From: a virus
DNA: 32,726 nt
IMG/VR virus record: IMGVR_UViG_3300022752_000244
Span: 1 to 32,726 of that record
Direction: 5' to 3' (one strand)
Position 1 is the first letter of the stretch; the number at the start of each line of letters is the position of its first letter. Below, piece after piece: positions 1 to 6,769 of the stretch. Made by a program: the position numbers and the translations under genes. The notes beneath the pieces are model-generated. The model had not been told where the DNA came from, searched no databases, and worked only from the letters and a program-made list of their open reading frames with translations.

Positions 1-29
1 TTGACAAGTGTTTTAGTCCGTGGTATAAT
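1..29 (+). promoter_or_regulatory. Consensus sigma70-type promoter P1(+)
   Basis: TTGACA at 1-6 and TATAAT at 24-29, 17 bp apart, so both hexamers match the consensus exactly. It is followed by TTTGGCGCC, the downstream box shared with the promoters at 608, 1839 and 1951. It faces the minus promoter at 67-95, and no plus-strand gene follows it, so its transcript would be antisense to the gene at 156-476. Confidence 0.8.
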
Positions 30-66
30 TTTGGCGCCTCCTGGCGGATTTTTCGGCGCCTATCCC

Positions 67-95
67 ATTATAGCAGGCTTTGCCTGCTATGTCAA
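67..95 (-). promoter_or_regulatory. Consensus promoter facing P1(+)
   Basis: On the minus strand TTGACA (95-90), a 17-bp spacer and TATAAT (72-67). The spacer is mostly a 9-bp stem hairpin sequence (70-78 pairs with 82-90). It fires out of the left edge, so its target gene is not in the window. The two -10 boxes of this convergent pair are 37 bp apart. Confidence 0.75.
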
Positions 96-116
96 GCGAA
101 AAAATTGCCGGAAAGC

Positions 117-762: not shown

Positions 763-1236
763 TTAGGCCGCCAGCCTCCTATTCTGTTTAGTTGCATTGA
801 AACAAGTAATGCCGATCGAAAGCATTGCAGCGATAACCTTAAGGTTATCATCGAACATGATTGCGTTTGCTTCCGCAGCGCAAGTAAAACCTTCGCTCTT
901 GAAGTAATCTTCGAGAAGATCAATCTTAAGCTGCGCGTCCCCGCGCATATCGTTTTCACCGCGCGAAAGAAAAACGTCATGGCCAAGGCCCTGTTCTTCC
1001 AGAAAAATATGGTTGGAAGGGTGAGGCGAACGAGCCGTGCAAATGATAACCGTGTGACCGGCAGCCTTGATTGCTTTCATGCTAGCAGCAAGAGGCAGAA
1101 GCGAGTCGGCCATGATCTTTTCATGCGTGTTATTTTCGAGCCAATGCTCAAGGTTCAGCGAACCATCGGGCAGGGTATTCTGGCGATGGCTGGAGTCGAT
1201 AACCGTGCCGTCGAGGTCGAAAATTACGTAAGCCAT
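763..1236 (-). CDS. HAD-superfamily phosphatase, PNK 3'-phosphatase-like
   Basis: This 157-residue protein is a small HAD hydrolase. Motif I is FDLDGT (nucleophile D7, acid/base D9), motif II is CTARS (T67), the motif III lysine is probably K104 in QLK, and motif IV is FDDN (D129, D130). The segment with LEHW and SRGENDMRGDAQLK resembles the phosphatase half of T4-type polynucleotide kinase and stand-alone phage nucleotidases, so nucleotide or 3'-phosphate removal is likely; the exact substrate is inferred. There is no kinase P-loop. The start at 1236 has GGAAGGA upstream. It is transcribed alone from 1264-1292 and ends at the terminator 728-761. Confidence 0.85.
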   Translation of the reverse strand: MAYVIFDLDGTVIDSSHRQNTLPDGSLNLEHWLENNTHEKIMADSLLPLAASMKAIKAAGHTVIICTARSPHPSNHIFLEEQGLGHDVFLSRGENDMRGDAQLKIDLLEDYFKSEGFTCAAEANAIMFDDNLKVIAAMLSIGITCFNATKQNRRLAA

Positions 1237-1950: not shown

Positions 1951-1979
1951 TTGACAACGCATCTAATTCCCACTATAAT
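1951..1979 (+). promoter_or_regulatory. Consensus tandem promoter P5(+)
   Basis: TTGACA at 1951-1956, 17 bp, TATAAT at 1974-1979, then TTTTGGCGC. It is an almost exact copy of P4(+) 112 bp downstream. Its transcript would enter the iterons at 1999 without meeting a coding frame. Confidence 0.8.
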
Positions 1980-1998
1980 TTTGGCGCTAGCGCGCTGC

Positions 1999-2126
1999 AT
2001 TAAATTCTCACTTGCGCGTTTTGGCGCTGCGCGCACATTAAATTCTCACTCATATTAAATTTGCACTCATATTAAATTCGCACTTGACTTTTGGCGCATT
2101 AATTTTTCACTCATTAAATTTTCACT
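1999..2126 (+). repeat. Six AT-rich iterons
   Basis: Six direct copies of a 14-mer, consensus ATTAAATTYNCACT, begin at 1999, 2037, 2054, 2071, 2098 and 2113. Copies 2 to 4 are spaced exactly 17 bp and share CAT after the 14-mer. TTTTGGCGC boxes lie between copies 1 and 2 and copies 4 and 5. Such arrays are typical of replication or partition protein binding sites; the function is inferred. Confidence 0.75.
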
Positions 2127-2127
2127 C

Positions 2128-2286
2128 TTTGTTCTCGGTTTGTTCACGGTCTGTTCCGCTGTTCACGGTCTGTTCCCGGTCCGTTCCCGGTTTGTTCTCG
2201 TTCTGTTCTGTTCCGGTGGAACAAACCGGGAACAAACAGGGAACCTCTACCGAATCGGTAGACATTGATTGGAACAAACCGGGAAC
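2128..2286. repeat. 11-bp GTTC/GAAC array (GTTC-N7-GTTC boxes)
   Basis: GTTC recurs at 2131, 2142, 2153, 2161, 2172, 2183, 2194 and 2205, and in reverse as GAAC at 2219, 2230, 2241, 2272 and 2283. Six GTTC pairs and three GAAC pairs are exactly 11 bp apart, i.e. nine GTTC-N7-GTTC elements, the form of the LexA (SOS) box in many Alphaproteobacteria. The intervening bases are usually CGG followed by TTT or TCT. They could be LexA sites, enhancer sites or partition iterons. Confidence 0.7.
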
Positions 2287-2310: not shown

Positions 2311-2335
2311 CCGATTGGCACGATTCTTGCATGAC
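2311..2335 (+). promoter_or_regulatory. Sigma54-type promoter in left arm of a 25-bp inverted repeat
   Basis: TTGGCACG-N4-TTGCAT (2315-2332) matches the RpoN -24/-12 consensus fully, with GG (2317-2318) and GC (2329-2330) separated by 10 bp. The whole 25 bp recurs as an exact reverse complement at 2722-2746. The start would be near 2342, running right. No activator gene is visible in the window. Confidence 0.55.
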
Positions 2336-2342
2336 GCGATAT

Positions 2343-2484
2343 TGAGAATCATTCGCAATGCTAATGCGAACCATTCGCAAATCACATTCCAGTGTGATAG
2401 TTTCATATAGAACCACATTTTAATGTGTCCGTCCTTTATTGATAATGATTCGCAATAGCCGCCCTTTATTGATAATGATTCGCA
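2343..2484. promoter_or_regulatory. Four Fur-box-like 7-1-7 palindromes
   Basis: Fifteen-bp elements lie at 2343-2357 (TGAGAATCATTCGCA), 2365-2379, 2440-2454 (TGATAATGATTCGCA) and 2470-2484 (same). They fit the Fur 7-1-7 pattern TGATAAT-N-ATTATCA with two or more mismatches each, and ATTCGCA half-sites as in some alphaproteobacterial iron boxes. The last two sit in a 30-bp direct repeat (2431-2460, 2461-2490). Two small palindromes at 2381-2398 and 2414-2427 lie between. Confidence 0.4.
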
Positions 2485-2490
2485 ATGCCT

Positions 2491-2570
2491 GCCCTTGCCT
2501 GCCCTTGCCTGCCCTTGCCTGCCCTTGCCTGCCCTTGCCTGCCCTTGCCTGCCCTTGCCTGCCCTTGCCT
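2491..2570. repeat. Eight perfect copies of a 10-bp repeat
   Basis: GCCCTTGCCT is repeated eight times without a mismatch, with partial units on both sides. The period of 10 is not a multiple of three, so it is not maintained by coding. On the minus strand GGG recurs every 10 bp with 7-nt loops, meeting the usual G-quadruplex rule, and the period is close to one helical turn. Confidence 0.9.
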
Positions 2571-2721
2571 GCCATATCCCTCCGACCCTGCCCAAAAATG
2601 CCCGCAAATGGCCCTTAGAGCGCGAAAGCGGCCCGGCCCGCACCTACCCTAGCTCGAGGCCTTGCCCTATGCTCTACGGGCCGGACATAAGGGGAACAAA
2701 CAAAAACACGAATAGGCAGGA

Positions 2722-2746
2722 GTCATGCAAGAATCGTGCCAATCGG
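2722..2746 (-). promoter_or_regulatory. Sigma54-type promoter in right arm of the 25-bp inverted repeat
   Basis: This is the exact reverse complement of 2311-2335, so the same -24/-12 element now reads left, with GG at 2740-2739 and GC at 2728-2727 and a start near 2715. The two arms face each other across 386 bp that hold the Fur-like boxes and the decamer repeat. Confidence 0.5.
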
Positions 2747-2758
2747 ATTCCGCAGACG

Positions 2759-2791
2759 AAAAAAATGCCCGGAACAAGTTGTTCCGGGCAT
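2759..2791 (-). terminator. Terminator of gene 2795-3064
   Basis: A stem of at least 11 bp (2765-2775 with 2781-2791) around an AAGTT loop is followed on the minus strand by seven T (2765-2759). Confidence 0.9.
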
Positions 2792-6340: not shown

Positions 6341-6769
6341 ATGACACAGATTGCACTTACACCAGAATGCCTTGACATTGCGAACGCCTATCTTGAATAT
6401 GGTTCGGCACAGGAAACCGCTAACCAGCTTCAGATTCCTGAATATCAGGTAATCTCTCTTCTAGAGCGTAAGGATGTCAAAGACTATATAACCGGGGTTT
6501 ACCTCGATAGAGGCTTTAGAAACAGACACAAGTTGGGTCAGGTACTAGATAGAATGATCGACGCTAAGCTACAAGAAGCAGAAGAGTCGGGAATGTATAC
6601 TAGTAAAGATTTATTAGAGCTACTTCAGTTTGCTCATAAGATCCGTATGGATGAGCTTAAACAAGAAAGTGGAAACAGTGGCCCAACAGTTAATATTGCT
6701 AACTTTGGCCAAGGAAACTACGGACAGTTGATGGAGAGACTTCTCACTAATGATAAAGGAGTTAAGTGA
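6341..6769 (+). CDS. terS: Terminase small subunit
   Basis: This 142-residue protein has an N-terminal helix-turn-helix (about residues 12-50: LEYGSAQETANQLQIPEYQV), a helical middle with KDLLELLQFAHKIRMDELK, and an IANFGQGNYGQLMERL tail, as in small terminase subunits that recognise the packaging site. Upstream in-frame starts (6305 TTG, 6332 ATG) fall in the promoter elements, so ATG 6341 is chosen; there is no Shine-Dalgarno site. TerL is 5.4 kb downstream, with the lysis and appendage genes between. It overlaps the next gene by 20 nt. Confidence 0.75.
   Translation: MTQIALTPECLDIANAYLEYGSAQETANQLQIPEYQVISLLERKDVKDYITGVYLDRGFRNRHKLGQVLDRMIDAKLQEAEESGMYTSKDLLELLQFAHKIRMDELKQESGNSGPTVNIANFGQGNYGQLMERLLTNDKGVK

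Follow-up and report, generated by a model that had tools for sequence, protein, structure and literature searches.

An array of 11-bp GTTC repeats recurs in unrelated water-borne phages and may be part of a replication origin

Several described systems are built from short repeats in DNA. Iteron-type origins consist of tandem short repeats; lambda ori is an example within gene O, and lambda-type origins lie at the linker of this gene. The pac site of phage P1 has repeated hexamers that flank the cut site on both sides, proteins of the OmpR/PhoB family bind 11-bp direct repeats head to tail, and the terminal repeat of phage T5 is a noncoding region. In Alphaproteobacteria, the LexA box has the form GTTC-N7-GTTC (PMC3323433, PMC9578287).

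We analyzed a 32,726-nt stretch of viral DNA (IMG/VR record IMGVR_UViG_3300022752_000244, positions 1 to 32,726; hereafter the window), a T5-like phage fragment with a GTTC-rich array in a noncoding block of about 1 kb. The original prediction described nine GTTC-N7-GTTC elements in one array, and our count agreed: the whole window contains exactly nine matches, all within 2131-2286, with six on the plus strand (2131, 2142, 2161, 2172, 2183 and 2194) and three on the minus strand (2219, 2230 and 2272). Dinucleotide shuffles of the window gave a mean of 0.73 matches and a maximum of 3. The six forward and three reverse matches were as predicted, but the proposed 11-bp period is broken once, where 2153 to 2161 spans 8 bp, and the final forward units are crowded at a spacing of 5-6 bp. 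Counted as half-sites, the array has 15 elements between 2131 and 2286, with 10 GTTC (2131, 2142, 2153, 2161, 2172, 2183, 2194, 2200, 2205 and 2210) followed by 5 GAAC (2219, 2230, 2241, 2272 and 2283), in two halves:

2131..2213, plus strand: forward half-array of 10 GTTC, mostly 11 bp apart, with the unit TTTGTTC[ACT]CG[GT]
2219..2286, minus strand: reverse half-array of 5 GAAC in two groups (2219-2244 and 2272-2286)

These halves are inverted repeats with 26-bp arms that are 88% complementary, and their predicted single-strand folding is strong (z = -7.25). A search of the array region for known RNA families found none.

The noncoding block also holds promoters, promoter-like repeats, palindromes, an inverted pair of sigma54-like sites, Fur-box-like repeats and a 10-bp tandem array. 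These features and the relevant neighboring genes are:

763..1236, minus strand: polynucleotide-kinase-type phosphatase gene
1839-1867 and 1951-1979, plus strand: two consensus promoters (TTGACA-17-TATAAT) directed into the array block
1996..2126, plus strand: six copies of [CT]ATTAA[AT]TTNNCACT, immediately left of the array
2245-2262 and 2288-2305, no strand assigned: two CTCTACCNAATCGGTAGA palindromes, interleaved with the reverse half-array
2311..2335, plus strand: TTGGCACGATTCTTGCAT, a sigma54-like site and the left member of a perfect inverted pair of 25 bp
2340..2488, no strand assigned: four Fur-box-like repeats, e.g. TGATAATGATTCGCAAT
2486..2573, plus strand: 8.8 perfect copies of TGCCTGCCCT, the 10-bp tandem array
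2722..2746, minus strand: right copy of the 25-bp sigma54-like pair, pointing inward
2765..2791, minus strand: strong terminator that ends the leftward gene set and insulates the block
6341..6769, plus strand: terminase small subunit gene (terS; PHROG 3802), the start of the late module

The promoters at 1839 and 1951 have no recognized gene in front of them, and the six repeats left of the array resemble pieces of these strong promoters. Facing pairs of consensus promoters, with about 90-115 bp from -35 to -35, are present elsewhere in the window (1-100 and 608-706) and in G005, G008 and L214, and such pairs are found repeatedly between genes in the T5-like group. Judging from the sequence, the rightward promoter of each pair would drive a short transcript antisense to the leader made from its leftward partner. 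The repeats at 2340..2488, which we take to resemble Fur boxes, lie beside the array, and single copies are also found in the corresponding block of L214 and G005. Besides the TGCCTGCCCT repeats of the window, C-rich stretches adjoin the arrays in L107, L145, L181 and L136.

The original prediction offered as one alternative that the array provides upstream activator sites for a sigma54-type promoter. The promoter part of this suggestion was borne out, as a consensus site (TTGGCACGATTCTTGCAT) lies 27 bp right of the array. The activator role fared worse: next to the arrays of the other phages that we scanned, no sigma54 site of this kind is present except for weak TGGCAT matches in L117, and the site in the window has an inward-facing twin at 2722-2746. 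We therefore rejected activator sites for the promoter at 2311-2335 as an extremely improbable explanation, on the grounds that a comparable site is absent beside the other arrays. Both copies of the 25-bp pair face inward onto a gene-free stretch.

To place the array among other viruses, we searched IMG/VR with a 26-bp pattern of three half-sites and retrieved 68 stretches, many of which are arrays, often organized as two facing halves. The unit over these arrays is GTTC[A/T/C]CG[G/T]TTT at 11-bp spacing; the GGT in the query fixes part of the unit in two units per array, and the remaining units are free. Among neighboring half-sites on the same strand, a spacing of exactly 11 bp clearly predominates (123 cases), with 14 bp next (17 cases). 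The carriers are environmental, water-borne viruses that are unrelated by gene content. They include T5-like phages (the window, L150, L138 and G032), contigs with an Sf6-type TerS (L107, L117, L121, L145, L151, L181 and others), contigs with a Terminase_2-type TerS (L110, L120 and L134), and G020/G023, G021, G024 and G025. HMM clustering of 984 ORFs of at least 70 aa, from contigs that are mostly fragments, found no family present in all carriers, and ORF clusters that overlap the arrays were discarded as artefacts of the repeats. Of the 13 long contigs scanned, 12 have the motif at a single main locus, if lone boxes that lie 0.6-0.7 kb off the principal cluster in a few of them are allowed for; the thirteenth (G024) has one additional isolated box 7 kb away, and a reversed control pattern gave 0. 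No array was found in the 12 cultured phage records scanned, and BLAST with a 40-base array consensus returned only weak matches. Likewise, species-representative bacterial genomes showed no arrays built from this unit; their tandem GTTC repeats have other units. Contig ends close to arrays were set aside as evidence, because repeats are also a cause of assembly breaks. Inside the array region of two contigs there are parS-like palindromes (L121 4200-4520, TGTTTCACGTGAAACA; L107 6440-6720, a near match).

The window itself has the T5-group gene set of portal, terminases, capsid and tail, which identifies the carrier as T5-like. Genes for T5-like terS, terL, portal, protease/head and tail tape measure proteins occupy its right part, and the portal is 44% identical to those of T5-group phages. 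No nucleotide-level match to phage records was found. The gene order is T5-like, and the array block lies on that side of terS on which the T5 terminal repeat would be expected. Unlike the window, the T5-group phage SHSML-45 has no array. Copy number, which the original prediction had proposed to check, varies among the T5-like relatives: L150 and L138 have full arrays and G032 has three units, and only one box is present within or close to the matching promoter block of G005, G006, G008 and L214. In L150 and L138 the arrays occupy divergent intergenic regions, and related small HNH endonuclease genes lie directly beside them (L138 4152-4505, L150 1378-1722). In L150, a relative of the phosphatase gene at 763..1236 lies across the array from its position in the window, and this contig also has a second, more divergent GTTC-rich stretch at about 1070-1160, upstream of the terS-side genes.

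The original prediction read the array as LexA boxes that would act as a LexA sponge or an SOS-sensing switch in an alphaproteobacterial host. The half-site sequence, the direct orientation and the 11-bp register all agree with the alphaproteobacterial LexA box (PMC3323433, PMC9578287). The nearest named relatives of several carriers, as judged by similar terminases, infect Roseobacter, Ruegeria, Sphingobium, Rhodobacter or Pelagibacter. Because these named phages infect Alphaproteobacteria, we compared the spacers of the arrays with those of 25 GTTC-N7-GTTC boxes that precede lexA in a sample of Pseudomonadota genomes. The two sets differed sharply (YANNTGT in the lexA boxes and [ACT]CG[GT]TTT in the arrays). 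Spacer position 2 is A in 17 of the 25 lexA boxes but in 1 of 130 array units, and position 6 is G in 17 of 25 versus 2 of 130 (Fisher p ~1e-15, a nominal value since units within one array are not independent). These statistics indicate that the array is not built from LexA boxes of the type found before lexA, and mainly for this reason we rejected the LexA sponge. The arrays also tile every 11 bp, with up to 15 half-sites and odd numbers included, and none of the genes adjoining the array was recognized as SOS-type. One sampled lexA operator, in L324, does have three GTTC at 11-bp spacing, and LexA may bind the array weakly, but a sponge or SOS switch is very unlikely. As a clue to the host, GANTC was not depleted in the window.

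We also considered whether the array is a packaging site of the pac or cos type bound by the small terminase. Like P1 pac, it has two groups of repeats near packaging genes, and in several lineages the arrays are close to terS or terL, mostly within 2 kb. An Sf6-type terS lies tens to about 400 bp from the array, the array of L153 is 590 bp from terL and that of L136 is 725 bp from terS, and in group B, L150, G021 and G032 the terminase genes are 0.8-1.9 kb away. However, the array unit differs from that of P1, and the TerS families of the carriers are unrelated, yet they have one motif in common. The terminase genes are distant in some contigs (terS 6 kb in L138, terL more than 10 kb in G020, and terS 5.6 kb in G022 even if circular). 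In the window, where terS begins with an ATG at 6341 within a frame listed from 6305, the distance is 4.1 kb, beyond the usual 2 kb. Most tellingly, the TerS of G005 is 94% identical to that of the window and goes with a single box. We therefore disfavor a TerS-bound pac site and regard a packaging site as unlikely.

A further explanation is an operator array: a regulator encoded by host or phage would occupy the 11-bp direct repeats in head-to-tail order and control the early/late switch from divergent promoters. The direct-repeat geometry, the placement of the arrays between divergent genes in several lineages, and the sufficiency of one box in relatives are all consistent with this possibility. 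A host protein would also explain the occurrence of the motif in unrelated phages that have no detected common gene. On the other hand, no regulator was identified, and in 200 Pseudomonadota genomes GTTCNCGNTTTGTTC was scarcely commoner than its reversed control, with matches mostly inside genes. We consider an operator array possible but doubtful.

We tentatively favor an iteron-type, cis-acting array for protein assembly that is common to unrelated phages and is most likely part of a replication origin, and we put this reading at somewhat under an even chance. Protein binding, head-to-tail loading and a replication role are the inferred parts of the following model. One DNA-binding protein, encoded by phage or host, would recognize the 11-bp unit TTTGTTC[ACT]CG[GT]. 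Because the units are about one helical turn apart, its copies would line up head to tail along a single face of the helix. The two facing half-arrays would then assemble into a single large nucleoprotein complex at or close to the boundary where the leftward gene module meets the rightward late module, which starts with terS. The likeliest use of such a complex would be as part of a replication origin.

Of the alternatives named in the original prediction, an 11-bp replication or partition iteron is the best remaining reading. It agrees with the one main locus, the 11-bp spacing, the skew position and related repeats in initiator genes, but not with the results for an AT-rich element or a shared initiator. 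In 10 long contigs combined, the arrays are closer to cumulative GC/TA-skew extrema than random positions (0 of 20,000 draws as close), with the array of G020 not at a strand-composition switch. Skew switches are no proof of an origin because they also mark changes in coding direction, and the position of the arrays fits an origin or a start of divergent transcription alike. The same 26-bp pattern also retrieved 11-bp GTTC repeats inside DnaD/O-like helicase-loader (initiator) genes, in the interdomain linker, in at least six further lineages (the L093 group, L091, L101, L126, L141, L144 and L148). Since a period of 11 bp is not a multiple of 3 and gives no peptide repeat, these repeats must be kept for the DNA sequence. 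By analogy with lambda ori in gene O, they give the best indication that GTTC repeats with an 11-bp period serve as iterons of an origin, although the linker unit (e.g. GTTCACGGTTC) is closely related rather than identical to the array unit and the initiator is different. The array resembles lambda ori in its tandem short repeats and one main locus per genome. It differs in being noncoding, with an 11-bp unit and two facing halves, and in having neither an adjoining initiator gene nor an enriched AT-rich element.

Several observations count against an origin. AT-rich unwinding elements are not enriched next to the arrays (combined p = 0.23, and 0.32 for the window by itself). The window, a fragment, has no initiator gene beside its array, which is 4 kb from the divergence point, and a single box is enough for its close relatives G005, G006 and G008. 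Nor was an initiator common to the carriers, most of which are fragments: D5_N was found in 1 contig, DnaB_C in 5 of those searched and an O-like PHROG in 2. A shared DnaB helicase or O/DnaD-like initiator was rejected as not common to the carriers. The P4 iteron, which we take to be GGTGAACA, had suggested a shared P4-type primase; this candidate was rejected with D5_N in only one carrier, and a literature search for GGTGAACA found no paper.

It is conceivable, though rather unlikely, that unrelated lineages, each of which has kept or acquired the same 11-bp array as an assembly point for starting replication or packaging, make use there of a DNA-binding protein that is as yet unnamed, probably host-encoded and present in the hosts of numerous aquatic phages. 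For phage genomes in general, the spacer of GTTC-N7-GTTC matches needs to be checked before they are called SOS boxes. Should the array prove to be an origin or assembly site, it would give unrelated environmental phages a common cis-acting signature that is searchable in uncultured genomes, show at which place these phages have their genomes processed, and point to a common, unnamed binding protein.
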